This document shows positions 7,126-32,866 of a DNA stretch of 41,135 nucleotides, one piece after another. The DNA comes from Plantactinospora alkalitolerans (lineage in GTDB: Bacteria > Actinomycetota > Actinomycetes > Mycobacteriales > Micromonosporaceae). Positions within the stretch are counted from its first letter, which is position 1; every line of letters starts with the position of its first letter. The notes below the pieces were generated by a model. The model saw nothing but the letters and a program-made list of their open reading frames with translations, did no database searches and was not told the DNA's origin. The translations under genes and the position numbers were made by a program. The stretch spans positions 1 to 41,135 of the forward strand of contig NZ_JADPUN010000251.1 of assembly GCF_015690345.1 (NCBI RefSeq), written 5' to 3'.

Positions 7126-8082
7126 ATGGATACCCGATCACGGGTGTCCTGGTCGGCGGAGTCGACTGGACCTCCAGACGGCCCTGCGGTCCCGCTGTCC
7201 CTGGACCCCACCGACCTCGACATGCTCCTGCTGATCCGGCATGTCGAACTCGGTCTGCTCAAGCTGTTCGCTGCCGGGCACCTGGGTGGTACGACGCACA
7301 CCTGCCTGGGGCAGGAGTACGTTCCGGTGGCCCTGAACCCGTTGCTGCAGCCGGCATTCGTGTTCAGCAACCATCGGGGCCACGGTCACTACCTCGCCCA
7401 GTTCGGTGACGTCGCCGGACTGATCGCCGAGGTGACCGGCCGGGAGGGTGCCGTCTGCGGCGGCCGTGGCGGAAGCCAGCACCTGTACCGGACCGGCTTC
7501 TGTTCGACGGGCGTGCAGGGCGAAAACGTCCCGGTCGCCCTCGGCGCCGCACTGCACTTCCGGACGTCCGGCTCGGATTCGCTGGCGGTCGCGTACATCG
7601 GCGACGGCACGTGGGGTGAGGGCGTGGTGTACGAGGCACTCAACATGGCGCGGCTGTGGCGGGCGCCGCTCGTCGTGGTCGTGGAGAACAACGGCATCGC
7701 GCAGACCACGCCGACGTCGCGGGCGATGGCGGGATCGATCGCCGCCCGGGCTGCCGCCTTCGACGTGCGGTACGCCCACGTCGCCGTCAACTGTGTCCGT
7801 ACGATCCGGGCCGAGCTGGCCGAGCCGCTGCGGCAGACCCGGGCCGGCGCGGGCCCGCTGGTCATCGAGTTCCGCACCGACCGACTCGGACCTCACAGCA
7901 AGGGCGACGACACCCGCGATCCGGCGGTGGTGCGCGAGCTGTGGGAACGGGACTGGGCGGCCGGCTACGCCCGGGCCTATCCCACCGAGTTCGCCTCGGC
8001 CGACGAGCGGCAGCGGGAGTTCGTCGCCGCGGTGACCGCCGAGGTGCTCGCCCGGCCACTCGTCGGGTCGGCCGCCGGATGA
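7126..8082 (+). CDS. 2-oxoacid dehydrogenase E1 component, alpha subunit (thiamine diphosphate-dependent)
   Basis: A 318-aa E1alpha subunit. The thiamine diphosphate/Mg motif runs from GDG (159-161) to ENN (187-189) with the normal spacing. SNHRGHGHYLA (81-91) and GGRGGSQHL (112-120) match the AcoA/PdhA-type alpha chain. With E1beta it decarboxylates a 2-oxo acid and passes the acyl group to lipoyl-E2. The ATG at 7126 has GGGGAGG five bases upstream; the 28 extra upstream residues in frame look non-coding. First gene of a seven-gene operon. No E3 (dihydrolipoamide dehydrogenase) is encoded here, so a housekeeping E3 would be needed. The oxo-acid substrate (pyruvate, branched-chain or other) is not evident. 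Confidence 0.9.
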   Translation: MDTRSRVSWSAESTGPPDGPAVPLSLDPTDLDMLLLIRHVELGLLKLFAAGHLGGTTHTCLGQEYVPVALNPLLQPAFVFSNHRGHGHYLAQFGDVAGLIAEVTGREGAVCGGRGGSQHLYRTGFCSTGVQGENVPVALGAALHFRTSGSDSLAVAYIGDGTWGEGVVYEALNMARLWRAPLVVVVENNGIAQTTPTSRAMAGSIAARAAAFDVRYAHVAVNCVRTIRAELAEPLRQTRAGAGPLVIEFRTDRLGPHSKGDDTRDPAVVRELWERDWAAGYARAYPTEFASADERQREFVAAVTAEVLARPLVGSAAG

Positions 8083-9095
8083 GCGTCGCGATCACCGGCC
8101 GGCGGGTTTCCGCTGGCCTCAACCAGGCACTGCACGACCTGTTCGCCGGGGACGACCGCCTCTTCCTGCTCGGCGAGGACGTCGTCGACCCGTACGGCGG
8201 CGCCTTCGGGGTGACCCGTGGGCTGTCCACCGCGTACCCGGACCGGGTGCTCGGCACCCCGATCAGCGAGGGCGGCATCACCGGGGTCGCGGCCGGTCTG
8301 GCGCTCTGCGGCGACAGGGCGATCGTCGAGGTGATGTTCGGCGACTTCATCACCCTGTGCGTGGATCCGCTGGTGAACTTCATCAGCAAGTCGGTGACGA
8401 TGTACGGCCGCCGGCTGCCGATGGGGGTGGTGGTGCGCTGCCCGGTGGGCGGTAATCGCGGCTACGGACCGACCCACAGCCAGAACCTGCAGAAGCTCCT
8501 GTTCGGAGTGCCCAACCTGCAACTCCTGGAGCTCTCACCGCTGCACGATCCGCGGCGGACGCTGGACCGCGCCCTCGCCGGCGGCGAACCCGCCGTGTTC
8601 TTCGAGGACAAAGTACTCTACACCACTCCCGAGTACCGCGCTGGCCGCATTGACAACTGCCTGCGCTTCGCCCCGGTCGACGAGTCGTGGATGCTTGTCG
8701 ACGCCGACGACGGCCCGGCCGACTGGGTGGTCATCGCCCCGGGGGGCCTGGTGCCCCGGCTACTACCCGCGATGCGGGCCGCCCTCGTCGACGACGAGGT
8801 GCTCACCCGGGCGCTGGTCCCCGACCGGCTGTGGCCGCTCGATCTGGACCCGGTGCTGCCGGTTGTCGGCGACGCGACCCGGGTCCTCGTGGTGGAGGAC
8901 GGCCCTGCCGGCGGTGGTTGGGCCGCCGAGGTGACCAGGGTCTTGTACGAGCGGCTGTGGGGGCGGCTGCGGCATCCGGTGCGGATCCTCCAACCGCCCT
9001 GCGCTGTGATTCCGGCCGCCACTCATCTGGAACGTGACCTGCTTCTGCAATCGGAGATCATCTACCGGATACTCGCCGGAGGCGACGATGGGTGA
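8079..9095 (+). CDS. 2-oxoacid dehydrogenase E1 component, beta subunit
   Basis: A 338-aa E1beta/transketolase-like subunit. LLGEDVVDPYGGAFGVTRGL near the N-terminus, the TPISEGGITGVAAGLAL stretch with the conserved cofactor-activating Glu, and EVMFGDFITLCVDPLVNF are the usual family blocks. The C-terminal transketolase domain follows (WVVIAPGG, VLVVEDGP). Its ATG overlaps the E1alpha stop by four bases (ATGA), as expected for subunits of an alpha2beta2 heterotetramer made in equal amounts. It overlaps the E2 gene by eight bases. No odd residue was noticed in the blocks. Confidence 0.9.
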   Translation: MSVAITGRRVSAGLNQALHDLFAGDDRLFLLGEDVVDPYGGAFGVTRGLSTAYPDRVLGTPISEGGITGVAAGLALCGDRAIVEVMFGDFITLCVDPLVNFISKSVTMYGRRLPMGVVVRCPVGGNRGYGPTHSQNLQKLLFGVPNLQLLELSPLHDPRRTLDRALAGGEPAVFFEDKVLYTTPEYRAGRIDNCLRFAPVDESWMLVDADDGPADWVVIAPGGLVPRLLPAMRAALVDDEVLTRALVPDRLWPLDLDPVLPVVGDATRVLVVEDGPAGGGWAAEVTRVLYERLWGRLRHPVRILQPPCAVIPAATHLERDLLLQSEIIYRILAGGDDG

Positions 9096-10236
9096 ACTGA
9101 CCGTGCCCCGGCTCAACAGCACGGACGACAGCTACGTACTGGTGGAATGGCTCGCCGCCGCCGGCGACGCGGTGGACGTCGGCGACGTGGTGGCGACGGT
9201 GGAGACGTCCAAGGCGGTGACCGACCTGACCGCGGAGGCCGCCGGTTTCCTCTCCCACGAGCTGCCTCCCTCCAGCGTCTGCCGGCCGGGCGACGTCGCG
9301 GGACGGCTGTGGAGCACGGCCGGCGAGGCGCTGGCCCGACCGGCGGCCCCGCCGCCGCGCCCGGCCGAACCGGTCACACCCGCACCGGCCGACGCGTCGA
9401 CGGTGATCACTCGTGGCGCCCGGGAGCTGATGCAGCGGCACGGCATCACCGAGGCCGCCGTCGAGGCGCTCGGGAAGCGGGTGGTCAAGCAGGCCGACGT
9501 CGAGTCCCTCGTCGGTGCCGTCGAGGCGCCCGGCGTTCCGCTCCCGGCTCACCAGCGCGCGGTGGCCCAGGCGGTCAGCCAGTCACATGCCACGATCCCC
9601 GCGGCGTTCACGGTCGTGAAAATCTCGGCCGAGGAGCTCCGCCGACGGCGTCGGAGCCTGGGTGAGAGGACCCGGACCGCGGTCGGGACGACCGAACTGT
9701 TGGTCGCCGCCGTCGCGGCACTGCGGCCGCGATTTCCGCTGTTCTTCGCGAAGGTACGCGACGACCTCGCGGTGACCACGATGGACCGTTCGGACGTCGG
9801 CGTCACCCTCGATGTCGGTCGGGGATTGTCCATCGGGGTGGTCCACGACGAGGTTGCCCTCGACCCCACCGCCGCCGCCAACCGGCTGATGACGCTCCGG
9901 CTGCGGGCGATGCGGGGCACGTTGCGGGAGGACGACCTGGCCGGGCCGACCATCGTGGTGTCACTGCACACCGAGCCCGGCGTCGTCCTGGCCCAACCGA
10001 TCATCCTGCCGGGACTGTCCTGCACGCTGTCCGTGGCTGGCATGCAGCAGGAGCTGCGGCTCGATGCCGACGGGCGACCTGTTCCCCATGAGTACCTCTA
10101 CGTCGGTGTGGCCTACGACCACCGCGTGATCAACGGTGCCGACGCGGTCGCCTTCCTCACCGCGTTGCGCGACGACCTGGAGACCCGGCCGACGGATCCA
10201 ACCGGAACCTCGACCAGCGGAACGAACGGAGTTTGA
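9088..10236 (+). CDS. 2-oxoacid dehydrogenase E2, dihydrolipoamide acyltransferase
   Basis: A 382-aa E2 with the complete three-part layout: one lipoyl domain (1-80) with lipoylation Lys42 in ETSKA; a proline-rich linker and peripheral subunit-binding domain (about 105-142, TRGARELMQRHGI); and the CAT-like catalytic domain (about 150-365). The active-site motif is DHRVINGAD with His345 and Asn349, where most E2 proteins have HxxxDG. The Asn form is known from some functional E2 chains, so activity is plausible. It would transfer the acyl group from lipoate to CoA or, given the free ACP gene three bases downstream, to the ACP phosphopantetheine. The start is fixed by the eight-base overlap with E1beta. 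Confidence 0.9.
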   Translation: MGELTVPRLNSTDDSYVLVEWLAAAGDAVDVGDVVATVETSKAVTDLTAEAAGFLSHELPPSSVCRPGDVAGRLWSTAGEALARPAAPPPRPAEPVTPAPADASTVITRGARELMQRHGITEAAVEALGKRVVKQADVESLVGAVEAPGVPLPAHQRAVAQAVSQSHATIPAAFTVVKISAEELRRRRRSLGERTRTAVGTTELLVAAVAALRPRFPLFFAKVRDDLAVTTMDRSDVGVTLDVGRGLSIGVVHDEVALDPTAAANRLMTLRLRAMRGTLREDDLAGPTIVVSLHTEPGVVLAQPIILPGLSCTLSVAGMQQELRLDADGRPVPHEYLYVGVAYDHRVINGADAVAFLTALRDDLETRPTDPTGTSTSGTNGV

Positions 10237-10239
10237 CGG

Positions 10240-10506
10240 ATGCGCGACTGGCCGCAGGAGTTCGAGGACGTGCTCCTTCCCCACCTCCCGGACCACGACG
10301 CCACGGAGCCGCTGGATCCGGACGCCCCCCTCGGCGACGCGGGCCTGACCTCGCTCGCCGTGGTGGGACTGATGGTCGACCTGGAGAACGCGTTCGACTT
10401 CGAGTTCGAGGAGGACCGGGTGACGGCGGACACGTTCTACTCGCCGCAATCGCTCTGGACCGTTGTGGCGGAGCACCGGGCCGCCGACCCGCTTCCGACC
10501 GGCTGA
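10240..10506 (+). CDS. Free-standing acyl carrier protein
   Basis: An 88-aa acidic protein of carrier-protein size. GLTSLAVVGL (about residues 35-44) aligns with the DSL phosphopantetheine-attachment motif, so the Ser of TSL should carry the 4'-phosphopantetheine arm; the usual Asp is Thr. Four helices are predicted by pattern. It starts three bases after the E2 stop, which argues that it accepts the acyl group released by the E1/E2 complex, but the coupling is inferred. It differs from the FkbJ-type ACP encoded at 18911-19207. Confidence 0.85.
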   Translation: MRDWPQEFEDVLLPHLPDHDATEPLDPDAPLGDAGLTSLAVVGLMVDLENAFDFEFEEDRVTADTFYSPQSLWTVVAEHRAADPLPTG

Positions 10507-10539
10507 CCCGGCGTCCGGTACCGCAATCAGGGGGAACAG

Positions 10540-11133
10540 GTGGACCAACACCCGACACGACCGGAACCGGCCCGCCGGCCGTTACTGCTCGTCTGCGCCG
10601 TGAACGACCGGCGGGCGGCGGCGGTGCGACGTGCTGCCGTGGTCGGCCTCGGCAACGTTCCAGGACTCGATCACATCGACATCCGCACCGTCGTCCCGCC
10701 GGCCGGGCCACCGCCGGGCTGGTTGGCCGGTGCGGTCGCCGCGACCGTGGACCGACCGTACGCGCTACTGGTGGAGTCGACGGCGGTTGGCGAGGCGTTC
10801 GACCTGGGCGGCCGGACGCTGACGCCTTACCCGTTGTTGCAGGTCCTCGTGGCCGGCGTGCCCGAGGCCGGTGCCGCCGTGCCGGTTCATCCGGCCGGGG
10901 TGTCGCTGGTGGCCCTCGTGCCGGCCGGGGCTCCGGAGGCGACCCGGAACGCCGCCGTCGGGTGGCGCCGGTGGTCCACCGGTCTGGTCGTCCGGGTGCT
11001 CGACCACGGATCAGACCTGCTCGTCGACAGCCCCACCGACGTCCTGCGGGTGGCCTGCGAGGAGTTGGGGGTCCTGCCGGCCGTCATCCCCACCGGCCCG
11101 GTCGTCCGTACGCCGACGGGAGCACCCGCGTGA
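10540..11133 (+). CDS. Unknown protein, 197 aa, with a TTA codon
   Basis: I do not recognise this protein. It begins with GTG preceded by a GGGGGA ribosome site and overlaps the next gene by four bases (GTGA), so it is surely translated as part of the operon. The sequence alternates hydrophobic strands (LLLVCAVND, YALLVESTAVGEAF, VSLVALVPAG, TGLVVRVLDHGSDLLVD), suggesting a compact alpha/beta cytoplasmic protein without signal peptide or membrane helix. No catalytic motif is visible. Codon 15 is TTA (10582-10584), the only in-frame TTA I found in any gene of the window. Its place between the ACP and the transglutaminase-like gene suggests a partner or accessory factor of that step. Confidence 0.75.
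   Translation: MDQHPTRPEPARRPLLLVCAVNDRRAAAVRRAAVVGLGNVPGLDHIDIRTVVPPAGPPPGWLAGAVAATVDRPYALLVESTAVGEAFDLGGRTLTPYPLLQVLVAGVPEAGAAVPVHPAGVSLVALVPAGAPEATRNAAVGWRRWSTGLVVRVLDHGSDLLVDSPTDVLRVACEELGVLPAVIPTGPVVRTPTGAPA
10582..10584 (+). promoter_or_regulatory. TTA leucine codon (possible bldA-type translational control)
   Basis: Codon 15 of the 197-aa gene is TTA. In high-GC actinomycetes TTA codons are rare and are often read by a developmentally regulated tRNA (bldA). A TTA this early in the gene could make the protein, and the coupled downstream genes, depend on that tRNA. Presence is directly seen; the regulatory effect is inferred. Confidence 0.5.
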
Positions 11134-12098
11134 CCGGCCCGGGCGTGACCGCCACCAGGATGGGCCGAACGGCCGTGACCGGCGCCGAGTTGGCCGCGAG
11201 GACGGCCGAGGTTGTGGCGGCGCTGACCCGCATTCCTTGGTCGGTGCGGCGGTTCGCCGTTCCGGCGGCAAGCGTCGCGACGACGTACCGGCTGGACCGG
11301 ACGGTGCTGGACATGGCCACCCGCGCCGGCCTGCCGTGCATCGGTACCGCCGACGACGCGCTGTACGACATGCACGATCTGACGAACCTCGCCCTCTACC
11401 TGCCGATGCGAACGCCGCACCGGGCGGCCATGCGGTTCTGGGCGCAGGTGCTCGACCGGCCCGACGGCGAGCAGCGGACCTACCGGATCACCTATCGGAC
11501 GGCCTGCCCCGCCCCCGGCCACGGCGGGCCCTGTGTGATCACCTTTCACCTCCCGGACGGCACCGCGGTGACGGTTCCCGCCGAGGACGGTCGCCCGGTC
11601 GAACACACCGTCGACGTCGTGCTGCGCAACGACTGGCCGGCACTGCCCGCGCCACTGGCCGACCTGGCGGAGGAGATGTCGGCCATCCAGTTCTTCCGGC
11701 TCCCCGACGCGATCCGGTGGGACGTCGACTTCTCGACCGCGAATCTGGTCGCCGACTGCGCGGGGATCGCCCGGCTGCTGGCCAACGGGGCGATGGAGCG
11801 GGGTTGGCAGAGCCGGGTGCGGTACGGGCTGATCGTGGCGCCGCCGTTCTCGATGCCGCACTTCTGGGCGGAGTTCCGGATCGACGGCCAGTGGGTTCCC
11901 TGTGATCCCGGTCTGATCAACGGCATGGTGCGCTGGGGTGTCCTGCCCGCCGGCCGGTGGACGCCCGACCGTTCCCTCGGCGGCCTGCTCGCCGGCATCT
12001 CGTCCCACTACCGCATGGCCGCCTTGCACAACGGGTTCCCCATCGACTCCTCCTTCCCCACCCACCAGGTCCAGCGCCCCGACGGAGTCCGACCATGA
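11130..12098 (+). CDS. Transglutaminase-superfamily protein, possible amide synthase
   Basis: A 322-aa protein from the overlapping GTG at 11130; an ATG at 11160 is the alternative. A papain/transglutaminase-like triad is visible: Cys210 in VADCAG, His244 in MPHFWAEF, and Asp259 in VPCDP. Spacing and flanking sequence (helix after Cys, strand with His, W-V-x-x-D-P) match the family. AdmF of andrimid biosynthesis is a precedent for such a protein forming an amide between carrier-bound thioesters, and the neighbouring ACP and C protein make that role attractive here. A protease or deamidase role is possible. Overlaps both neighbours by four bases (GTGA, ATGA). The fold call is good; the reaction is inferred. 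Confidence 0.75.
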   Translation: MTGPGVTATRMGRTAVTGAELAARTAEVVAALTRIPWSVRRFAVPAASVATTYRLDRTVLDMATRAGLPCIGTADDALYDMHDLTNLALYLPMRTPHRAAMRFWAQVLDRPDGEQRTYRITYRTACPAPGHGGPCVITFHLPDGTAVTVPAEDGRPVEHTVDVVLRNDWPALPAPLADLAEEMSAIQFFRLPDAIRWDVDFSTANLVADCAGIARLLANGAMERGWQSRVRYGLIVAPPFSMPHFWAEFRIDGQWVPCDPGLINGMVRWGVLPAGRWTPDRSLGGLLAGISSHYRMAALHNGFPIDSSFPTHQVQRPDGVRP

Positions 12099-13474
12099 CC
12101 GCACCTACCGCGAGTTTCGACGGGCTGACCAGCCGGACCGGGCCGCTCACCTGGGCCCAGCGGTGGTCGTGGGACGTGCTACGGGAGCTGGTGCCGAAGG
12201 AGGACCGGCTCAACATCGTGATCCGGGCCGAGGTCACCGCCGGGTTGGGTACCGACAAGGTCCTCGCGGTGGTCACCGACCTGGTGGGTCGGCACGAGAC
12301 CCTGCGCACCACCTATTCCGTGCTGCCCGACGGCGATCTCGAGCAGGTGGTGCACGGCAGCGGTGAGGTGCCGGTGACCATCCGGGACGCAGGCGACGAT
12401 CCGATCGACGGGGTCGTCGAGGAACTGGCCATGGAGTTGTACCGGGGTCGCTTCGACCTGGCGGCCGACCTGCCGATCCGGGTAGGCGTGGTCACCCGTT
12501 CCGGCGAGGCCACGCATCTCGTGGTGGTCCTGTCGAACATGACCGTGGACGGTTGGGGGATCTATCTGCTGGAGCGGGAGCTGGCCGCCCGGCTGGCCGG
12601 CGACGGGGTGTCCCGGGCGCCGTGGCCGGGGCAGCAGCCGCTCGACCAGGCAGCCGACGAGCGGAGTCCGGCGGGGCTCCGGGTGGCGGCTGCGGGCACC
12701 CGGCACTGGGCGCGCGAACTGGCCCGAATCGCCGAGATTCCGCAGCCGCTGCGGCGCCCGGCCGGGGAACGCCCCCGTTTCTGGTGCGCCGAGTTCACCT
12801 CGGTGGCCCTGTCGCAGGCCGCGCACCTGATCGCCGAGCAGCGACGGGTTCCGCCGTCGGCGGTCCTCCTCGCGGCGGTGTCGGCGCTGGTCGGTCGTCA
12901 TCTCGGACAGCCCTCCTGCGGGTTGTTCGTGGTGGTCAGCAACCGCTACCAGCCGACGGTACGCGGCACCGTGGGGAAGCTCTTCCAGTCGTCACCGGTC
13001 TGCCTGGACCTGGTCGGCGAGTCGTTCGGCGACCTGGTGGAGGCGACGTCCCGTCGGCTGCTGAGGGCGTCCAGGTTCGGTCAGTGTGATCCGCTCCAGG
13101 TGGCACCGCTGGTACACGGCGATGGACCGCACCGGGGAGCGCACCTGGCCCTGCCGATGGTGTACGACTACCACCATCGGGAGGAGGCTGGGGCCGACCG
13201 CGTGGTGGACGGGATCGACGGGCTGCGGGCCGCCGCGGTCCACTCGACGTTCCGCTGGCTGGACGCGTTGGACGAGGAGAACATGTGCCTCTATGTGCAG
13301 GTGCACGAGTTCGGCGTGCGGGCGCGGGTGGTGTTCTGGATCGACACCAACTACCTGTCCCGCGCCGACCTGGCCGCCATCGTCTTCGGCGCGGAGCGCC
13401 TGCTGATCGAGGGGGCCGCCGCCGAGGTGCCGCTGGATCGAATCGAGGTGGTAAGCGGCCTCAACACCAAGTGA
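12095..13474 (+). CDS. Stand-alone condensation-domain protein with degenerate active-site motif
   Basis: A 459-aa protein covering one complete C domain and nothing else. TWAQRWSWD (about 19-27), RHETLRTTY (66-74) and the later floor-loop VVVSNRYQP and GTVGKLFQSSPVCLDL are typical C-domain blocks. The HHxxxDG motif reads SNMTVDG at 147-153, so both histidines, including the catalytic second one, are replaced (Ser147, Asn148), while Asp152-Gly153 are kept. The protein may be a non-catalytic partner, a carrier-docking scaffold, or use unusual chemistry. The ATG overlaps the stop of the transglutaminase-like gene (ATGA). Last gene of the operon that starts at 7126. Confidence 0.85.
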   Translation: MTAPTASFDGLTSRTGPLTWAQRWSWDVLRELVPKEDRLNIVIRAEVTAGLGTDKVLAVVTDLVGRHETLRTTYSVLPDGDLEQVVHGSGEVPVTIRDAGDDPIDGVVEELAMELYRGRFDLAADLPIRVGVVTRSGEATHLVVVLSNMTVDGWGIYLLERELAARLAGDGVSRAPWPGQQPLDQAADERSPAGLRVAAAGTRHWARELARIAEIPQPLRRPAGERPRFWCAEFTSVALSQAAHLIAEQRRVPPSAVLLAAVSALVGRHLGQPSCGLFVVVSNRYQPTVRGTVGKLFQSSPVCLDLVGESFGDLVEATSRRLLRASRFGQCDPLQVAPLVHGDGPHRGAHLALPMVYDYHHREEAGADRVVDGIDGLRAAAVHSTFRWLDALDEENMCLYVQVHEFGVRARVVFWIDTNYLSRADLAAIVFGAERLLIEGAAAEVPLDRIEVVSGLNTK

Positions 13475-15895: not shown

Positions 15896-16663
15896 TCAGG
15901 AGGCTTCGGGGACCAGTCGTGCTGCCAGTCCGTCGACGATGCGGGAGTGTACGAACGCCGCCTGCCGCACCACGGCGAAATGGTCACCGGGCAGGACATG
16001 CAGGGTGAACGCGCAACTCGTCTGGGCCCGCCAGGCCGCCACCCCTTCCCGGCCGGCCCGGCGGTCCGCGGTGGCCGCGAACGCGGTCACCGGCACGTCC
16101 AGCGGGGGCTCCGGGGCGTACCGGTAGGTCTCGTTCACCGACAGGTCGGCCCGCAGCAGCGGCAGGATGGTGGCCAGCAGATCCGGGTCGTTCAGCACCG
16201 CCTCGGGGGTACCGCCCAGCCCGCGCATCTCCGCGACCAGCTCCTCGTCGCTGACGTCGTACAGCGGCGCCGAGGTGGCGGCCAGGTGCGGCGCGTGCCG
16301 CCCGGCCACGAACAGGTGCTCGGGCGCCGGCCAACCCCGCCTGCGGATCTCCCGCACCAACTCGAAGGCGAGCAGCGCGCCCATGCTGTGCCCGAACACC
16401 GCGAACGGCTCGTCGAACACCGGCGCGAGCGCCTCCACCAGGTCGGCCGTCAGCGCCTCGGCGTCCCGGTACGGCTCGTCCCAGCTCCGGCCCTCCCGAC
16501 CGGGTGGCTGCGCCAGCACCGGCACCACCGTGGAGGCGAGCCCCTGCGACCAGGCCCGGTAGACGGAGGCGCCGGCGCCGGCGTGCGGCAGGCAGACGAG
16601 CCGGACCGCGCCGGGGGGCCTGGTGCCGGTGCCGAACGGCAACCAGGGTGTCCGCGCGGTCAC
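15896..16663 (-). CDS. Type II thioesterase
   Basis: A 255-aa alpha/beta hydrolase of the external PKS/NRPS thioesterase family. The nucleophile Ser93 is in GHSMG, the acidic residue is in the ATADRRAG region, and the catalytic His is in GDHF near residue 227; LVCLPHAGAG (22-31) supplies the oxyanion loop. Such enzymes remove wrong or stalled acyl groups from carrier proteins, so it would edit the PKS and free ACPs of this cluster. The GTG at 16663 overlaps the FkbH-like stop (GTGA). It is the last gene of the minus-strand extender-unit operon. Confidence 0.92.
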   Translation of the reverse strand: MTARTPWLPFGTGTRPPGAVRLVCLPHAGAGASVYRAWSQGLASTVVPVLAQPPGREGRSWDEPYRDAEALTADLVEALAPVFDEPFAVFGHSMGALLAFELVREIRRRGWPAPEHLFVAGRHAPHLAATSAPLYDVSDEELVAEMRGLGGTPEAVLNDPDLLATILPLLRADLSVNETYRYAPEPPLDVPVTAFAATADRRAGREGVAAWRAQTSCAFTLHVLPGDHFAVVRQAAFVHSRIVDGLAARLVPEAS

Positions 16664-17754
16664 GGCGTCGCCGTCCGGATCGGATCGGTAACCAGGCGAA
16701 CGTAGGAGGCTTCCGGAAGCTCCAGGTCGGCATCCCGTTCCAACACCACCCGGTCCCCGTCGCGGGCGATCTCCCGGAATCCGGCGAAGGCGTACGTGAC
16801 CTGCATCATTCGGTTGCGACCGGTCTCCACGAAGTCGGCGCGCAGGGTCGCGCCGTCATCTCGGGCCAGCCGCGTGACGTGGTTGAGGAGCACCATGCCC
16901 ACTCCGCGGGACACCACCCGGCAGGACATCAGCAACAGCCGCAGGTCCCAGTGCAGATCGCCCTTCTCGACCAGCGCGAGGCCGATGGTGCCGTAACTGC
17001 CGAACGTGTCGGTGAGCGAGGCGACCAGCAACAGGTGGTCGTCGCGGACCCGGATCGCGTCGAGTTCGTCGTACGAGTACGTGCGACCGGTCGAGTTGAG
17101 CTGGTTGGTACGTAGCGTCAGTTCCTCGGCCCGCTGCAGGTGCTCCCGCTCGGCGTGGACAATCGTGAACACCATGTCGAGGCTGCGAAGAAAGTCCTCA
17201 TTGGTGCCGGCGAACTCCCGCTCGGCCTCGGCGCGAACGCTCTGCGTCCGGTACATCTCCCGACGGTTGCGCGACTCCTCCGTGACGAACCGCGGCTCGA
17301 ACTCCGGCCACCGGATCGCGTCGGCGAGGTCGACGACGTCGACGCGGAGCACCTCCGGTACGGCGTACGCCACCTCGGCCAACTCGAACGGTTGGTCGTC
17401 GACGAACGCGATGGCGTCCAGACCGATGTTGAGCGACGCGGCGATCCGCTGGATCGACTCCGACTTTGGCTGCCAGCCGATCTCGGGGTGCAGGAACAGG
17501 TCCGTCAGGCCCAGCTCCGTGAGCCGTTGCCAGGCCGCTGCCCGGTCGTTCTTGCTGGCGATCGAGTGCAGGATGCCGACCGAGTCGAGGTGACGGATCA
17601 CCTCCACCACCTCGGGCCGGACGTCGCATGCGTCGCCCTCCAGCAGGACGCCGTTCCACAGGGTGTTGTCGAGATCCCAGACCACACACTTGACCCGGCC
17701 ACGTCGGTGCGCATCCGGCACCTCGGGGCCGCGCACCGCACTATCCGTAGTCAT
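16660..17754 (-). CDS. FkbH-like HAD-superfamily glyceryl-ACP synthase
   Basis: A 364-aa protein of usual FkbH length. The HAD motif I is DLDNT (27-31) in VVWDLDNTLWNG; SKND, GWQPKSESI and FVDDQPFE give the remaining HAD blocks. A GNAT-like C-terminal half follows (from about 180, including the YGTIGLALVEKG and SCRVVSRGVG segments). The family takes 1,3-bisphosphoglycerate, removes phosphate and loads a glyceryl group on a dedicated ACP. Together with the next three genes upstream this makes an oxygenated C3 extender unit. The ATG overlaps the acyl-CoA dehydrogenase stop (ATGA). Confidence 0.93.
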   Translation of the reverse strand: MTTDSAVRGPEVPDAHRRGRVKCVVWDLDNTLWNGVLLEGDACDVRPEVVEVIRHLDSVGILHSIASKNDRAAAWQRLTELGLTDLFLHPEIGWQPKSESIQRIAASLNIGLDAIAFVDDQPFELAEVAYAVPEVLRVDVVDLADAIRWPEFEPRFVTEESRNRREMYRTQSVRAEAEREFAGTNEDFLRSLDMVFTIVHAEREHLQRAEELTLRTNQLNSTGRTYSYDELDAIRVRDDHLLLVASLTDTFGSYGTIGLALVEKGDLHWDLRLLLMSCRVVSRGVGMVLLNHVTRLARDDGATLRADFVETGRNRMMQVTYAFAGFREIARDGDRVVLERDADLELPEASYVRLVTDPIRTATP

Positions 17755-18914: not shown

Positions 18915-19207
18915 CCGGAGACGGCGACCGGGGCGGCCTCGGCCGGAGAACCACCGGAGCGCATGCGCTCGAACAGGGAGACCATCCGGTCGACGGAACG
19001 GAAGTTGTCGATCTGCAACTCCTGGTTCGGGATCGTGGCCCCGAACACCTTCTCCAGGAACACCACGAGTTCCATGGCGAACAGGGAGTTGACGTAGCCG
19101 AGCGCGAAGATGTCGTCGTGGTCGGCGATCTCCTGCTGTGGGTACCGGCCGGCGATGAACTCACGGACCTGCGTCCGGATCTCGGTGAGCGTGAGCTCGG
19201 ATGACAT
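18911..19207 (-). CDS. Dedicated acyl carrier protein for the hydroxymalonyl/methoxymalonyl unit (FkbJ-like)
   Basis: A 98-aa carrier protein. The attachment site is GYVNSLFAMEL, with Ser in NSL; this NSLFAM sequence is characteristic of FkbJ-type ACPs and differs from DSL of module ACPs. It carries the glyceryl, hydroxyacyl and finally malonyl-level unit. The ATG at 19207 has an AAGGCGG-type site upstream; the longer in-frame extension upstream is antisense to no feature and looks non-coding. It starts 11 bases after the dehydrogenase gene and overlaps the next gene by four. Confidence 0.92.
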   Translation of the reverse strand: MSSELTLTEIRTQVREFIAGRYPQQEIADHDDIFALGYVNSLFAMELVVFLEKVFGATIPNQELQIDNFRSVDRMVSLFERMRSGGSPAEAAPVAVSG

Positions 19208-19218
19208 TGACGACCGCC

Positions 19219-21734: not shown

Positions 21735-23264
21735 TCACCGGGTGAGCCGACCCGCGAGTGCCACCCGGTCGGGCTTGCCGTTGGCGGTGAGCGGGATCGC
21801 CGGAAGCACCCGGCAGTCGGTGGGCACCTTCGCCGCCTCCAGCCGGATCGCGAGTTCGCGGAGCACCTGCGCGGGGGTGAGGTCGGTGGCGACGAACAGG
21901 ACGATGTCTCGGCCGGCCGCCGGCGGCAGCAGGGCCGCGCCCGTGACACCGGGGATGTCCTGGGCGGCCGCCTCGATCTCCACTCCGCTCGCGCGTACCC
22001 CGTTCCGCTTGAAGATCTCGTCCCGGCGGCCCACGAACACCAGCTCACCGTCCGGGTGAAGATAGCCGTAGTCGCCGGTGTGCAGCCGGACCTCCCCCGT
22101 CTCGGGCGAGCGCCGGAAGGTCCGGTCGGTCAGCTCGGGCGCCCGCCAGTAGCCCGCCATCACATGCCCGCCACGCACCACGATCTCACCGACGGTCATC
22201 GGCGGCACCGGGCGTTCCGCCTCGTCGACCACCAGGACCTCGGTGCCGGGCAGTGCCGGGCCCACGGAGTCCGGCCGCAGCAGGTCACCGTCCTCCGGCT
22301 CCCGCACCGTGATCCGCTTGCATTCCGTGGTGCCGTACATCAGGGCGATCGAGGCGCCGGGAAAGCGATCCAGCAGGAGGCGGACCGCCGGGGCGGGCAA
22401 CGCGGCACCGGTGTTGGTGAACAGTCTGACCCCGGTCGGGCGCGGGTCCCGCGCGGCCAGCGTGGTCAGCATGGTGGCCACCGACGGCACCAGCGGAACC
22501 ACCGTCGCACCGGCCGCACGCACGCTGGCGAGCAGCCCGGCGTTCGGGGCGTCCGCGGCGAGGACCACCTCGGCACCGGCGAGCGCCCCGAGGAACACCT
22601 GGTAGAGACCATAGTCGAAGGAGAGCGGGAGCCGGCAGAAGATCACGTCGTCGGGCCGGTAACGAAGCACCCGGGCGATCGCGGCGGCAGCGAAGACCAC
22701 CGCGCGGTGCGGGCAGACGACCGCTTTCGGCGTCGCGGTCGTTCCGGAGGTGTACAGCAGCAGCGCGACGTCCTGACCGATCACTCCGGTCGTCGAACGG
22801 TCGAGGTCGTGACCGGTGGCGGCGGCGAGCACGTCCGACAGGGCGACCGCGCCCGCCACGCCCGACAGGTCCATCTCGTGCTCGTCGAGCACGAGCAACG
22901 CCGGTTCGGCATCCGCGACCACGGCAGCAAGGTGGAACGGCTTCATCTGGACACTGATCGGCGCGAACGCGGCACCGACCCGGAACGTCGCGAACATCAG
23001 CGTGACGAGGTCCCGCTGTCGCCGGGTCCGCACCAGCACGCGGTCGCCCCGCCCGATGCCACGCCCACGCAGCCAGCTCGCCAGGCGACGGCTCGTCGCG
23101 TCGAGTTCGGCCCAGGTCCACACTCCCCCACCGTCACGCAGGGCCGGCCGGTCGGGAAAGCGCTCTGCCGCGTCGTCGAGCAATTCGTGTACGAGTTCGC
23201 CGAGGGGGGCGGCACCTTCGCCGAGGTGGCCGACACCGGAGTGGGCCAGGGTAGCGCCAGCCAT
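21735..23264 (-). CDS. AMP-dependent acyl-CoA/acyl-ACP ligase
   Basis: A 509-aa adenylate-forming enzyme. YTSGTTATPK (171-180) is the P-loop, with Thr-Ala in place of the common Gly-x. YGTTE, LHTGD, GRRDEIFKRNGVR and the C-terminal LTANGKPDR with the adenylation Lys complete the set. There is no attached carrier domain, so the acyl adenylate goes to CoA or a separate carrier. The gene is divergent to PKS1, whose first domain is an ACP with no loading enzyme of its own; this ligase is the obvious candidate to prime it. The ATG at 23264 follows GAGGTGA by six bases. The acid is not predictable by eye. Confidence 0.9.
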   Translation of the reverse strand: MAGATLAHSGVGHLGEGAAPLGELVHELLDDAAERFPDRPALRDGGGVWTWAELDATSRRLASWLRGRGIGRGDRVLVRTRRQRDLVTLMFATFRVGAAFAPISVQMKPFHLAAVVADAEPALLVLDEHEMDLSGVAGAVALSDVLAAATGHDLDRSTTGVIGQDVALLLYTSGTTATPKAVVCPHRAVVFAAAAIARVLRYRPDDVIFCRLPLSFDYGLYQVFLGALAGAEVVLAADAPNAGLLASVRAAGATVVPLVPSVATMLTTLAARDPRPTGVRLFTNTGAALPAPAVRLLLDRFPGASIALMYGTTECKRITVREPEDGDLLRPDSVGPALPGTEVLVVDEAERPVPPMTVGEIVVRGGHVMAGYWRAPELTDRTFRRSPETGEVRLHTGDYGYLHPDGELVFVGRRDEIFKRNGVRASGVEIEAAAQDIPGVTGAALLPPAAGRDIVLFVATDLTPAQVLRELAIRLEAAKVPTDCRVLPAIPLTANGKPDRVALAGRLTR

Positions 23265-23746: not shown

Positions 23747-26700
23747 ATGTTGGGAAACGAGCAGTCATTCCACAAATACACCGAGCTCCTGAGGGCGTAC
23801 CTCCCGTTCTCGGGTCCTACCCCACTCCAGCTCTCCGACGACCTGGCGGAGCTCGGCCTGGACTCGCTCAACACCGTGGCGCTGCTGGTAGAGATCGAGG
23901 ATGCGCTGGGCGTGACCATCCCGGACGAGGCGCTGACGGTCGAGACCTTCTCTACCGTGGGATCACTGTGGTCCACGGTGTCCGCCCTGGCCGAGGACGC
24001 CGCCCGGACCGACCAGGACGCCGCCGGACCTCCGCAGCCCGCCGCTCCGCGGTCGTCCGTCGACGGCGCCAACGCTTTCGACCACGGTGGCCCGCTGACC
24101 GTCACACCACCGACCATGGAGGCGGAGACGTCAGTAGGGGCGGAGACGTCAGCAGGAGCGGAGACGTCCGTGCCGACGCGGGCCACCGTACGGCCCGTGA
24201 CGCCCGTCGAGCCGGACCGGCGGATCGCCGTCATCGGCATGGCCGGCCGGTTCCCGGGAGCGTCCGACGTCACCGAGTTCTGGCGCAACATCAGCGGTGG
24301 GATCCAGTCGCTGACGACGTTCACCGAGGAGGAACTGCTGACGGCCGGCGTCGACCCGGCGCTGGTCAAGGACCCCCAGTACGTGGCGGCCCGACCGGTA
24401 CTCAAGGACATCCGGGGCTTCGACGCGGAGTTCTTCGGCTACAACCCCCGCGAGGCCAAGATCGCCGACCCACAGCAACGGGTCTTCCTGGAGTGTGCCT
24501 GGGAGACCCTGGAGGTGGCCGGCTACGCGGTACCCGACCGGCGCGGCCGGGTCGGCGTCTTCGGCGGGACGAACCTCAGCACGTACTCGCTCGACCGGTT
24601 CGCCCTGCATCCCAGCATGATGGAGATCACGCCGTTCGAGCTCATCATCGGCAATGACAAGGACGCCCTGGCCACCATGGTGTCCTACAAGCTCAACCTG
24701 ACCGGACCCAGCATCGCCGTGCAGACCTTCTGTTCGACGTCACTCTCGGCGGTCCACCTCGCCATCCAGAGCCTGCGCCGGGGCGAGTGCGACATGGCAC
24801 TGGCCGGCGGCGTCTGCATCCGGGTGCCGGACCGCATCGGCTACCTCTACCAGGAGGGCGGCCAGGAGTCACCGGACGCCCACGTCCGCACCTTCGACAA
24901 GAACTCCCAGGGCGGCGTGTTCGGTGACGGCGCCGCCGTCGTGCTGCTCAAGCCCCTGAACCGGGCCATCGAGGACCGGGACACCATCCTCGGCGTGATC
25001 CGCGGCTCGGCGATGAACAACGACGGCGCCCAAAAGTTCAGCTACACCGCGCCGAGCGTGGTCGGCCAGGCACGGGCGGTGGCCGACGCGCTGGTCGACG
25101 CCGAGGTCAGCCCACAGGACATCTCGTACGTCGAGGCGCACGGCACGGCCACCGAACTGGGCGACCCCATCGAGGTGGCGGCCCTGACCCGGGCCTACGG
25201 CCCCGACGCCGGCCGGCAGTACTGCGCCATCGGTTCGGTGAAGACCAACGTCGGCCACCTGGACCGGGCGGCAGGGGCCACCGGCCTCATCAAGATCCTC
25301 GAATCGATGCGCCACGAGGAACTGCCGGCCACCCTGCACTACACCGGCCCCAACCCGGAGATCGACTTCGCCAACAGCCCGTTCTTCGTCAGCGCGGAGA
25401 ACCGGCCCTGGCCGCGAGTGGCCGACCGCCCCCGCCTCGCCGGGCTCAACTCCCTCGGCGTCGGTGGCACCAACGTCCACGCCGTGATCGAGGAGCCGCC
25501 GCTGCCGGTTTCCCGCCCGACCACCAGCCGGCGTTGGCAGGTGCTACCCGTGTCGGCCCGGTCGGAGAAGGCGGTCCGGGAGTCGTGCACGCGGTTGGCA
25601 CAACACCTGCGCGAGCACACCGAACTTCCGATCGCCGACGTCGCGTTCACCCTCCAGGTCGGCCGGGACCTCTTCGATCACCGGCGAGTGGCCGTGGCGG
25701 GCTCCACCGCCGCCGCCGCGGGCACCCTCGACGGGACCGCGTCGACCAACCGGCTGCTGTCCCGCGCCGACTCGACACAGGGCCGGGGCGTCGGCTTCCT
25801 GCTCGCCGGTGTGGGCGAGCACCACCCCGGCATGGTTGCCGACCTGTACGCCCACGAACCCGTGTTCCGCGCCCACGTTGACGACTGCCAGCGGCTACTG
25901 GCCCAGCACTCGGCCATCGACGTCGTCGCCGCCCTGACCGGGTCCGGCGCGGCGTCCTCGGACGTACCGGATCTCGCCCAACTGATGGGCCGCGTGGCCG
26001 ACGCGCCCACGACGGGCTGGATGGACCGCACCGAGATCGCCCAGCCGGCGGTCTTCGTCGCGGAGTACGCCCTGGCCCGCACGCTGATGGACTGGGGTGT
26101 CACGCCGAGCGTGCTGGTCGGTTACAGCGTCGGCGAGTACGTCGCCGCGTGCCTGGCCGGTGTGCTCTCGCTGCCAGACGCGCTACGGCTGGTGGCCCAC
26201 CGGGCGCAGCTCATCGCCGCACTGCCGGCCGGCGCCATGCTCGCCGTGGCGTCCAGTGCGGACGACCTGCACGACCGCGTGCCCGACCTGCGCGAGCGCG
26301 GCCTCGACATCGCCGCGCTCAACGGCGCCCAGATCGTCATCGCCGGTCCGGTCGATGCCGTGACCGAGGTCGCCGGCCTGCTGCGCGGCACCGGAGTCGC
26401 CTGCCGGAACCTGCAGACCACCCACGCGTTCCACTCCCGGATGCTGGCGCCGGCGGCTGCCGCCCTGACCGACTGGGTCGCCCAGCACATCACCCTCAAC
26501 CCGCCCACGATCCCGTACGTCTCGAACCTGAACGGACAGTTGGTCGACGCCGACCTGGTGACCGACCCGGGCTACTGGGCCCGGCACATGTGCGGCACGG
26601 TGCGCTTCGCCGACAGCCTCAGCACCGCGCTCGACCTGCCCGACATCGCCTTCCTGGAGATCGGTCCAGGCAAGTCGCTCGGCGCGATGCTGCGCACCCA

Positions 26701-28990
26701 CCCGAACTGCGGCATCGAGCGGTGGCCGCTGATCGTCTCGACACTTCCCGCCGCCGCCGAGTCCCTTGCTGCGGACGCCACCCTGGCTGACGCGCTGGGC
26801 CGGTTGTGGCTGGCCGGTGTGCTCGTCGACTGGGACACCTACCACAACGGCGCGGCCCCCGGCGGCTGGAAACCCGGCCGGCTACACCTGCCCACCTACC
26901 CGTTCCAGCGGCAGAACTACTGGTACGACGAGAACCGCCCGGCGGGTCAGACCGGGATCGCGGCTCCGCCGGCCACCGGCGGGACCGATCTCGACTCCCT
27001 TCCCCGGCTTCCGGAGGAGCGGTGGCTGCACGTTCCGGTGTGGCGGCAGACCGCTCCCCGGCCGGCCGTCCCGGCCACCGCCACCCACTGGCTGGTCTAC
27101 ACCGACGTGGGTATGGCCGACGCGCTGGTGGGCCCACTCGCCGACGCGCTCGCCGCCGGTGGCGACCGGTTGACGTTCGTCCGTCCGGGCGAGGGCTTCG
27201 AGGATGGCGTCGACGGATTCCGGATCCGGCCGGGCAGCGCCGATGACACCCTGGCCCTGTTCGCGGCGCTGCACGACGGGGCGGGCCTGCCGGACCGCGT
27301 GCTGCACCTGTGGACGCTGCCCGACGAGGCCGGGCCGCGACCGCCGACCGAGGACCGAGGTGAGATCGCGGCGATCATCCAGCGGGGGTTGCACACCCTG
27401 GTCGCGCTCGCCCGGACGGCGCAGGAGAGCGGGCTCTCCCGGTGGTCCCTCGACGTGGTCAGTTCCGGCACCCAACGGATCGATGACGAGTTGCTGCACC
27501 CGGCGCGGGCGACCGTGGTCGGCCCCTGTCGGATGATCCCGGTGGAGTATCCGCTGGCCACCGCCCGGCTGATCGACCTTCCACAGGACGCCGTGACGCC
27601 GATCATGGACCTGATCGGTGAACTGCGGGCGGCACCGAGCGACCGGATCGTGGCGCTACGCCGCGGTCGCCGCTGGGTACCCACCTACGACGTCCTGCAG
27701 GCCGCCGAGGACACCGACGTGGCGAGCGCGGGCGTCGCCGCCGACCGCGTCGCCGGGACGGCCATCCGCCACGGCGGCACCTATCTCGTCACCGGAGGGC
27801 TCGGCGGCATCGGACTCGCCCTGGCCGAGCGGCTCGCCGACCAGCACGGGGCCCGGTTGGTGTTGTTCGGGCGCACCCCGGTACCGCCGCCGGCCCAGTG
27901 GGACGACGTACTGGCCGATCCGCAGGCGAACGCCGAGGTCCGGCGCCGGATCGAAGGTCTACGCCGGCTGGAGGCCAGCGGCGCGCAGTTCGCCCTCGTC
28001 GCGGGCGACGTCGCCGACCCGGCCGACGTGCGACGCGCCGTGGACGTCGCCATCGAGCGTTTCGGTGCCCTGCACGGTGTGCTGCAGGCCGCCGGTGTGC
28101 CGGGGGTCGGTCTGATGCAGTTCAAGACGAACGCCGACATGGACCGGGTGCTGGCACCCAAGGTGGCCGGCACGGTCGCGCTGGCCCGCGCGCTCGACGG
28201 GATAGCGGTCGACTTCGTCGTCCTGTTCTCCTCGGTCGCCTCGGCGACCGGCGCCCTCGGGCAGACCGACTACTGCGCGGCCAACGTGTTCCTGGACGCG
28301 TTCGCCCAGAGCGGCGCCCTGCCGCAGACCCGGGTCGTGTCGATCGGCTGGGGCGAGTGGCTGTGGAACGGCTGGACCTCCGGGCTGGGCGGCTACGAAC
28401 CGGCGGTCCGCGAGTTCCTGCAACGGCACCGGGCGCACTTCGGAATCAACTTCGACGAGGGCTGGCGGGCCATGCTCCGGGTGCTGGACAGCACGATCCC
28501 CCACGTGGTGGTCTCCACCCAGGACTTCGCCGCCCTGGTCGAGCGCAGCGCCGACTACAGCCTGAGCCAGATGCAGGATGCCGCACAGCAGGTCCGGGGG
28601 GTGGATCGCCATCCACGGCCCGACCTCTCGACCCAGTACGCAGCGCCACGGACGCCGGCCGAACAGACCGTCGCCGACGTCTGGGCCGAGTCCCTGGGAC
28701 TGGAGAAGGTCGGTATCCACGACAACTTCTTCGAGCTGGGTGGCACGTCCCTGATCGGCGTCGGCATCGTCGACGCCGTCCGGCGGGCACTGAAACTGCC
28801 ACAGTTGCCCGCGCACATCCTCTACCAGTCCCCCACCGTCGCGGCGCTGGCGGTGAGCGCCGTCTCCGGGACGGCCGGGTCCGGCACCGAGGCGGACGAG
28901 TCAGACAGCAAAGCGGCCGAACGGGCGAAACAGCAACGATCCCGGGTCCAGAAACGACGCGAGAGCCTGCGGGGCGGGAGACCGGCGTGA
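23747..28990 (+). CDS. Type I polyketide synthase PKS1: ACP-KS-AT-KR-ACP
   Basis: A 1747-aa protein. An N-terminal ACP (1-85, Ser in GLDSLN) is followed by a repeat-containing linker. The KS (about 158-585) has Cys329 in TFCSTSL and its two His in EAHGTAT and NVGHLD. The AT (about 680-1050) has GYSVG with Ser794 and HAFHS at 893-897, the malonyl-type sequence; the usual His before Ser is Tyr. The KR (core about 1343-1560) has LVTGGLGGIG and catalytic Ser, Tyr and Asn (YCAAN). The second ACP has Ser1668 in GGTSL. A basic/acidic C-terminal tail (about 1715-1747) looks like a docking helix. With an ACP first and no loading AT, the starter must be attached in trans, probably by the divergent ligase. 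The gene overlaps PKS2 by four bases (GTGA). Confidence 0.93.
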   Translation: MLGNEQSFHKYTELLRAYLPFSGPTPLQLSDDLAELGLDSLNTVALLVEIEDALGVTIPDEALTVETFSTVGSLWSTVSALAEDAARTDQDAAGPPQPAAPRSSVDGANAFDHGGPLTVTPPTMEAETSVGAETSAGAETSVPTRATVRPVTPVEPDRRIAVIGMAGRFPGASDVTEFWRNISGGIQSLTTFTEEELLTAGVDPALVKDPQYVAARPVLKDIRGFDAEFFGYNPREAKIADPQQRVFLECAWETLEVAGYAVPDRRGRVGVFGGTNLSTYSLDRFALHPSMMEITPFELIIGNDKDALATMVSYKLNLTGPSIAVQTFCSTSLSAVHLAIQSLRRGECDMALAGGVCIRVPDRIGYLYQEGGQESPDAHVRTFDKNSQGGVFGDGAAVVLLKPLNRAIEDRDTILGVIRGSAMNNDGAQKFSYTAPSVVGQARAVADALVDAEVSPQDISYVEAHGTATELGDPIEVAALTRAYGPDAGRQYCAIGSVKTNVGHLDRAAGATGLIKILESMRHEELPATLHYTGPNPEIDFANSPFFVSAENRPWPRVADRPRLAGLNSLGVGGTNVHAVIEEPPLPVSRPTTSRRWQVLPVSARSEKAVRESCTRLAQHLREHTELPIADVAFTLQVGRDLFDHRRVAVAGSTAAAAGTLDGTASTNRLLSRADSTQGRGVGFLLAGVGEHHPGMVADLYAHEPVFRAHVDDCQRLLAQHSAIDVVAALTGSGAASSDVPDLAQLMGRVADAPTTGWMDRTEIAQPAVFVAEYALARTLMDWGVTPSVLVGYSVGEYVAACLAGVLSLPDALRLVAHRAQLIAALPAGAMLAVASSADDLHDRVPDLRERGLDIAALNGAQIVIAGPVDAVTEVAGLLRGTGVACRNLQTTHAFHSRMLAPAAAALTDWVAQHITLNPPTIPYVSNLNGQLVDADLVTDPGYWARHMCGTVRFADSLSTALDLPDIAFLEIGPGKSLGAMLRTHPNCGIERWPLIVSTLPAAAESLAADATLADALGRLWLAGVLVDWDTYHNGAAPGGWKPGRLHLPTYPFQRQNYWYDENRPAGQTGIAAPPATGGTDLDSLPRLPEERWLHVPVWRQTAPRPAVPATATHWLVYTDVGMADALVGPLADALAAGGDRLTFVRPGEGFEDGVDGFRIRPGSADDTLALFAALHDGAGLPDRVLHLWTLPDEAGPRPPTEDRGEIAAIIQRGLHTLVALARTAQESGLSRWSLDVVSSGTQRIDDELLHPARATVVGPCRMIPVEYPLATARLIDLPQDAVTPIMDLIGELRAAPSDRIVALRRGRRWVPTYDVLQAAEDTDVASAGVAADRVAGTAIRHGGTYLVTGGLGGIGLALAERLADQHGARLVLFGRTPVPPPAQWDDVLADPQANAEVRRRIEGLRRLEASGAQFALVAGDVADPADVRRAVDVAIERFGALHGVLQAAGVPGVGLMQFKTNADMDRVLAPKVAGTVALARALDGIAVDFVVLFSSVASATGALGQTDYCAANVFLDAFAQSGALPQTRVVSIGWGEWLWNGWTSGLGGYEPAVREFLQRHRAHFGINFDEGWRAMLRVLDSTIPHVVVSTQDFAALVERSADYSLSQMQDAAQQVRGVDRHPRPDLSTQYAAPRTPAEQTVADVWAESLGLEKVGIHDNFFELGGTSLIGVGIVDAVRRALKLPQLPAHILYQSPTVAALAVSAVSGTAGSGTEADESDSKAAERAKQQRSRVQKRRESLRGGRPA
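24122..24175 (+). repeat. Three tandem 18-base units in the ACP-KS linker of PKS1
   Basis: Units at 24122-24139, 24140-24157 and 24158-24175 encode AETSVG, AETSAG and AETSVP. The first two differ at two bases; the third is more diverged. The repeat keeps the frame and lies in a disordered linker, so copy number probably changes only linker length. Confidence 0.85.
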
Positions 28991-32862: not shown

Positions 32863-32866
32863 CTCG

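Follow-up and report, generated by a model that had tools for sequence, protein, structure and literature searches.

The window, that is, the whole contig NZ_JADPUN010000251.1 of Plantactinospora alkalitolerans (41,135 bp), carries an operon of seven genes encoding, in order, E1alpha, E1beta, a lipoyl E2, a free acyl carrier protein (ACP), a protein without known family, a transglutaminase-like protein (TG) and a stand-alone protein of the condensation (C) fold. We lean slightly towards the reading that the TG joins glycolyl-ACP to a beta-aminoacyl-ACP in an AdmF-like manner, with the C protein as a non-catalytic or altered partner. The less ordinary part is the TG with its adjoining C protein, which lacks the second active-site His; the glycolyl-ACP part is known chemistry. 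Among the papers listed by searches of open-licence literature, none was seen to describe the gene set or the pairing of a TG with a His-less C protein, which is weak evidence of novelty.

A sequence-only reading of the same DNA had described seven packed genes, with overlaps or gaps of at most 33 bases, as a possible new acyl-ACP assembly line. All seven plus-strand open reading frames (ORFs) were found where it placed them (7126–13474), with overlaps of 4, 8, 4 and 4 bases and gaps of 3 and 33 bases, and its domain assignments (E1/E2, ACP, TG-like, C) agreed with Pfam, Transglut_core falling just under the cut-off. The claim of newness did not hold for the E1/E2 part, since loading of a carrier by E1/E2 is of a known kind and the cassette has at least 578 relatives. 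Two active-site departures had been passed over: the E2 reads HRVING and the C protein SNMTVDG.

The TG and the C protein without the second histidine

The Cys-His-Asp triad of the TG (C210/H244/D259), already pointed out from the letters, was invariant in all eight aligned sequences, window included. The TG scored 22.6 bits against PF01841 Transglut_core (cut-off 23), and three homologues scored 33–41 bits. A structure predicted from two sequences only had a mean predicted local distance difference test score of 46, and the PDB gave one match, at E 0.22. The TG is likely an amide- or ester-forming enzyme.

The C protein falls in the condensation fold family (PF00668, cut-off 30.6 bits). It reads SNMTVDG where HHxxxDG is expected, the second His being replaced by Asn and the motif Asp kept. 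The sequence-only reading had the last proteins of the operon join the acyl group to an amine or alcohol; for the TG this remains likely, for the C protein as catalyst less so. Since the second His is absent, the chemistry of the joining is more likely that of the TG.

The loss of this His was counted with a C model of 35 rows, built without C proteins within 10 kb of a TG. Thirty TG stretches were examined; 28 gave a TG hit above 100 bits, and together they held 13 C-fold domains, one of them at a left contig end without the motif. Eleven C-fold domains within 10 kb of a TG were readable, and nine lacked the second His: the window protein (N), two proteins of contig 186 of the same genome (N and L), those of Verrucosispora sediminis and genome G663 (both A) and of genomes G569 and G622 (both N), and those of loci L201 (L) and L228 (I). 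The alignment of L201, a multidomain nonribosomal peptide synthetase (NRPS), is weak, and L228 extends up to the edge of its stretch. As a control, 90 cassette loci without a TG in view were used, 61 of them with C domains (171 in total, 27 unreadable and dropped), mostly of longer NRPS-type ORFs. The second His was present in 140 of the 144 readable domains, the other four having P, P, K and Y. The difference (9/11 vs 4/144 lost) gave a Fisher p of 3e-10, or 3e-8 with two orthologous pairs collapsed. With single-ORF C proteins only, collapsed and with L201 and L228 left out, it was 5/7 vs 4/144 (p 4e-6). A better matched control, restricted to C domains of TG-free loci whose ORF does not exceed 620 aa, had the His in 50 of 51 readable rows, 16 unreadable rows being dropped. 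A previous count, made with a different model on a smaller number of TG loci, had given four His-less and four His-bearing proteins near TG vs 130/132 His-bearing elsewhere, with 1 and 12 gapped rows dropped, respectively.

In the C tree, the window protein groups with the two contig 186 proteins (96/93), and that of V. sediminis lies elsewhere, with a long-branch warning. This separate position would mean at least two losses of the His, if the long branches can be trusted.

The TG was also searched for more widely. Since the first scans scored at most five candidates per genome, their genome counts are lower bounds; the own genome was counted in the phylum, order and class scans. Matches were found in at least 5/396 genomes of the phylum (E 1e-3), at least 5/397 of the order (E 1e-8), at least 13/394 of the class (profile, E 1e-5, several partial) and at least 16/392 of the genus to which G246 belongs, presumably Streptomyces (profile, E 1e-20). 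The plasmid collection gave no TG match. A deeper look covered 31 genomes among the cassette carriers of the family, with a best E1beta match of at least 49% identity; eight had a TG match at 1e-10, seven of them strong (1e-60 or better). The distance between TG and E1beta is about 3.6 kb in V. sediminis (G630), G663, G569 and G622; the TG is on the cassette contig at 38 kb in G499 and 71 kb in G467, and on another contig in G593.

The first four of these genomes share a set of VinN-like adenylation enzyme (A), C, ACP, TG, ACP and E1alpha/E1beta/E2, in two subtypes. The V. sediminis locus reads VinN-like A, C, ACP, partial A, ABC transporter with C39 peptidase, TG, ACP, AurF-like oxygenase, weak A match, E1alpha, E1beta and E2. 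G663 has the same match pattern, and G569 and G622 form the second subtype, by model matches rather than Pfam. In each of the four stretches examined, the models found one C-fold protein, which is His-less, and no ketosynthase (KS). Such small clusters with a TG, a His-less C protein, several adenylation matches, an E1/E2 cassette and no KS found were seen at L138/L139, L220, L221 and L222, and the AurF-like oxygenase was identified at L138. Actinoplanes utahensis has a VinN-like A, a C protein with the second His and E1/E2; no TG was found in the 20 kb examined, and TGs are present elsewhere in that genome. In the genome of the window itself, contig 186 (L022, 3380–17533) carries a second set of C, TG, ACP, ACP-C and KSIII, and the family search found no second cassette E1beta in this genome. 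Near this set, a methionyl-tRNA-synthetase-like protein, a ThiG-like protein and AMP-binding proteins were observed.

An association of C and TG-like proteins is as such not unprecedented. For A-102395 (cpr), the C protein Cpr47, the TG-like proteins Cpr49/50/57 and the carriers Cpr48/55 have been proposed to build the polyamide (PMC8037709). That system shares with the window a C protein, TG-like proteins and free carriers, and differs in that its description does not mention an E1/E2 cassette (PMC8037709). A 2019 review reads as though no enzyme of the A-102395 polyamide pathway had been characterized (PMC6384614).

The E1/E2 cassette and the amine side

Pfam places the E1alpha in E1_dh and the E2 in Biotin_lipoyl and 2-oxoacid_dh, and no E3 was found among the Pfam families of the seven operon proteins. 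The claim of intact thiamine and lipoyl motifs was borne out: GDG...VVENN, ETSKAV and GLTSL, which we take to be the motifs of thiamine diphosphate (ThDP), the lipoyl Lys and the ACP Ser, respectively, are all present in the translations. The E2 has HRVING at the site where lipoate acyltransferases have HxxxDG. Across 93 cassette loci with 87 readable matches, 84 read HxxxNG, two HxxxTG (one of them RenI) and one HxxxGG, so the Asn marks the cassette family and not the window alone. The two canonical E2 proteins of the same genome read DHRIIDG and DHRLVDG. Since its KGD-type protein also departs (DHRIIQG), the E2 motif alone is not decisive. Against the NCBIfam 2-oxo-acid dehydrogenase models, the best scores and cut-offs were 166.9/393.85 for E1alpha, 118.9/321 for E1beta and 88.1/449 for E2. 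A housekeeping 2-oxo acid dehydrogenase complex was rejected as a candidate on these scores together with the lack of HxxxDG in the E2.

Scanning of named genomes with an E1alpha alignment gave at least 578 confirmed relatives, the best 80 of which were kept as named cassette loci. These are mostly from actinobacteria, with cyanobacteria and Chloroflexota too. E1beta and E2 were also matched in 76 of the best 80, and the tight order E1alpha-E1beta-E2 was seen in 67. The TG was found in 1/80, although the TG/C set does occur in four loci of the family. Within the family, E1beta matched at E 1e-60 or better in 52/354 genomes, the own genome included. Among the actinobacterial cassettes compared, identity to the window was 55–68% for E1alpha and 49–66% for E1beta, except L051 (45% and 41%). 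A group at 40–46% identity in the family represents a second, more distant E1alpha/E1beta pair, as in L051 (G734); no E2 was matched beside the pair in L051, the only such locus checked. Resolution of the E1alpha tree was poor, 20 of its 30 inner branches being open and the bootstrap unsettled; the window/G499 pair is among seven starred branches. The window ACP is 39% identical to the ACP adjoining the TG in V. sediminis. With a free-ACP model, an ACP beside the cassette was seen in 31/93 loci; since this model is weak, nothing is claimed from it on ACP absence.

The E1alpha/E1beta/lipoyl-E2/ACP half is largely a widespread loader of an already known kind and not a new machine. The glycolicacyl-ACP platform (NapB/C/D, QncN/M/L, DinU/T/S, SclQ1-4) likewise keeps together the genes for a ThDP E1alpha, an E1beta, a lipoyl E2 and a small free ACP, with similar protein sizes. 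In the window, E1beta and E2 are separate proteins, as in Scl, and the gene sizes are close to those of SclQ1-4. The condensing candidates are here a TG and a His-less C protein, not an NRPS C domain. The published systems of this kind (Nap, Qnc, Din, Scl) are assigned to make glycolicacyl-ACP from a ketose phosphate, not from a 2-oxo acid. In dnacin biosynthesis, DinS/DinU were assigned as NapB/NapD-type transketolases, with a hydroxyethyl unit passing from xylulose-5-phosphate to DinT (PMC7570522), and SclQ1-4 of scleric acid are homologous to QncN/QncL/QncM, which are reported to direct a C2-glycolicacyl unit (PMC6335953).

The window was connected to these systems through locus L132 (Streptomyces griseus BIG105), which has E1alpha, a small ACP in the gap, a fused E1beta-E2 and KSIII. 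An FAD monooxygenase and a UvrA-like protein are encoded close by, and the locus also has an M28 peptidase. Apart from the peptidase, this set fits the nap/din gene list; by gene order, L132 looks like a naphthyridinomycin/dnacin-type tetrahydroisoquinoline cluster. Window and L132 are 35% identical in E2, and 55% in E1alpha and 57% in E1beta; the latter two values are within the range reported among the named systems, in which DinU/NapB are 68% identical (PMC7570522), SclQ2/QncN 61% and SclQ3/QncL 51% (PMC6335953). RenH of the renieramycin plasmid is more distant than L132, at 43% and 35% in its two parts.

For the amine side, the stand-alone ligase of the window matched 3wvn over 485 residues, the next molecule scoring 263 bits. 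3wvn is VinN, with the key residues K330, R331, D230, F231 and S299 (PMC11253843), and VinN loads (2S,3S)-3-methylaspartate onto the ACP VinL (PMC11284099). Like VinN and the related macrolactam beta-amino-acid adenylation enzymes, the window ligase keeps the Asp (D230, in FDYG) and the Lys and Arg (K330 and R331, in TECKR), the numbering being transferred by eye at an offset of 16. These three residues were found in all five aligned A proteins (window, V. sediminis, Actinoplanes utahensis, G663 and G569). On this likeness, the beta-amino-acid amine is probably supplied by the VinN-like ligase, encoded elsewhere in the window.

Gene neighbourhood

The window is the entire contig 393 of a 9.2 Mb genome assembled in 441 contigs. 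Its left end is a partial C domain and at its right end a polyketide synthase (PKS) runs off the contig, which makes truncation of the gene cluster on either side probable. The main features are collected in Table 1.

Table 1. Operon genes and two further features of the window, with the match or motif on which each assignment is based.
Feature	Position	Strand	Basis
E1alpha, ThDP-binding subunit, Nap/Qnc/Scl-type, 318 aa	7126..8082	+	PF00676 128.6 bits
E1beta, 338 aa	8079..9095	+	PF02779 Transket_pyr and PF02780 Transketolase_C
Lipoyl-E2 acyltransferase with HRVING instead of HxxxDG, 382 aa	9088..10236	+	PF00364 and PF00198
Free ACP, 88 aa, proposed glycolyl carrier	10240..10506	+	PF00550 PP-binding 28.2 bits
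Protein without known family, 197 aa	10540..11133	+	no Pfam match
TG, triad C210/H244/D259, proposed condensing catalyst	11130..12098	+	PF01841 just under cut-off
Stand-alone C-fold protein, SNMTVDG, proposed non-catalytic or altered partner	12095..13474	+	PF00668 60.7 bits
VinN-like stand-alone adenylation enzyme, proposed beta-amino acid loader	21735..23264	-	3wvn 486 bits
PKS, ACP-KS-AT-KR-ACP, N-terminal ACP as likely loading site	23747..28990	+	Pfam domains

By Pfam, two family-2 glycosyltransferases and an FAD-NAD(P)-binding protein lie left of the operon on the minus strand, and a LuxR-type regulator, an ABC transporter and a thioesterase lie to its right. At 16660–20088, a HAD-type protein, an acyl-CoA dehydrogenase, an ACP and a 3-hydroxyacyl-CoA dehydrogenase follow, presumably an FkbH-type route to hydroxymalonyl- or methoxymalonyl-ACP. 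Since no methyltransferase is among these four genes, hydroxymalonyl-ACP rather than methoxymalonyl-ACP is suggested. The PKS order, also by Pfam, is ACP-KS-AT-KR-ACP, KS-KR-ACP without AT, a C protein, and KS-AT-DH-KR-ACP-KS running off the contig (AT, acyltransferase; KR, ketoreductase; DH, dehydratase). In the KS-KR-ACP module (28987–32862) Pfam finds no AT domain, while the PKS proteins on either side have one. The C protein that follows it, the second of the window (32855–34768), keeps the second His and lies 21 kb from the TG. No KSIII was found among the window genes scanned. The 197-aa protein gave no Pfam family at E ≤ 5, a single PDB match at E 0.85 only and no tblastn match in the best 80 named cassette loci.

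Proposed condensation and its alternatives

By homology, E1alpha/E1beta would move a two-carbon ketol unit from a ketose phosphate to ThDP and then to the lipoyl arm of E2, and E2 would load it on the free ACP at the phosphopantetheine, so that glycolyl-S-ACP is formed. Glycolyl-loading chemistry has been published for the Nap and Qnc enzymes, and Peng 2012 is reportedly the primary paper on the glycolyl-ACP route. Loading of the free ACP by E1/E2 is most likely, and the loaded group is, with only slightly less assurance, predicted to be glycolyl. The VinN-like ligase would charge an ACP with a beta-amino acid, this ACP probably being either a free one or the one at the N terminus of the PKS. 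The TG would take the glycolyl group onto its Cys and transfer it to the amine of the beta-aminoacyl-ACP, and the resulting N-glycolyl amide would prime the PKS; we consider this amide formation, drawn by analogy, about as probable as its failure. Catalysis is assigned to the TG because of the analogy to AdmF and because in the four related loci the models used detected no other condensing enzyme whose active site is intact. AdmF of andrimid biosynthesis is reportedly a transglutaminase homologue that acts as condensation catalyst (Fortin 2007). Common to AdmF and the window TG are the Cys-His-Asp TG-like protein, a carrier-protein pathway and a beta-amino acid acceptor, proposed in the case of the window; the differences are that the donor in the window would be glycolyl and that a His-less C protein adjoins the window TG. 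The latter would bind or orient carrier proteins or act by an altered mechanism, an assignment that falls a little short of an even chance. More tentatively, a split condensation may be envisaged, in which a TG-fold catalyst and a C-domain pseudoenzyme serving as carrier platform, its His lost perhaps more than once, couple sugar-derived glycolyl-ACP to beta-aminoacyl-ACP in place of an NRPS C domain.

Several observations weigh against AdmF-like joining of glycolyl and beta-aminoacyl units. The TG was found in only one of the best 80 named cassette loci, that of V. sediminis, so its pairing with the cassette is uncommon, and the 197-aa protein has no assigned role. The likeness to AdmF was drawn from description. 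The link of the window to Nap, Qnc, Din and Scl runs via L132, which was itself assigned by gene order, and no substrate can be read from the sequence. In the ligase, F231 and S299 of VinN are replaced by Tyr and Thr. Some scleric acid was still made after sclQ1-4 had been deleted, and supplementation with glycolic acid restored a similar level (PMC6335953). E1/E2 systems proposed to load carriers from 2-oxo acids exist as well, known here by description. In the pepteridine pathway of Photorhabdus, lipoate dehydrogenase parts (E1 and E2-T-C) are proposed to prime a carrier ahead of an atypical C domain, as here; its proposed donor is a 2-oxo acid and its E2, carrier and C domain are fused (PMC5384830). 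This precedent (PMC5384830), together with the homology of E1/E2 to pyruvate and branched-chain dehydrogenases, speaks for an acyl-ACP made from a 2-oxo acid and then used by the same TG and C protein. That donor, which the sequence-only reading had proposed along with loading through acyl-lipoyl-E2, is nevertheless quite improbable: the loading stands as most likely, but among relatives to which a role has been assigned, Nap, Qnc, Din and Scl, all of the ketose-phosphate/glycolyl type, are the nearest, the NCBIfam scores are far under the cut-offs and the E2 is of the HxxxNG type.

Two further points against the preferred reading concern the C protein. Those of L140 and L198, within 10 kb of a TG, keep the second His. 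Nor is this His always essential, since its mutation does not always abolish activity and ORF18, a C protein with HQxxxDM, is active (PMC11546977). The window C protein, with its motif Asp kept, could then condense by substrate positioning, and the TG could be a proofreading hydrolase or a deprotecting enzyme; this seems unlikely, as the loss of His is concentrated beside TG genes and the TG often occurs without a C protein in the stretch examined (18 of the 28 TG-hit stretches). Glycolyl-ACP might instead prime or extend the PKS directly, with the TG and C protein acting elsewhere, for instance in joining a finished chain to an amine or alcohol. The cassette adjoins PKS genes without a TG on a Paenibacillus polymyxa plasmid, and the His-bearing C protein after the AT-less PKS of the window also fits; as TG and cassette recur in four loci whose examined stretches gave no PKS with the KS model, we give direct use a similarly low probability.

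If the pairing of TG and His-less C protein is real, it would represent a further class, besides andrimid, of assembly-line amide formation by a TG fold. It would also mean that C domains can persist without catalysing, in the role of partners, a point of interest for the debate on the function of the second His (PMC11546977). With the four small relatives, in whose stretches no KS and no His-bearing C protein were found, AdmF-like joining by the TG becomes testable with few proteins.

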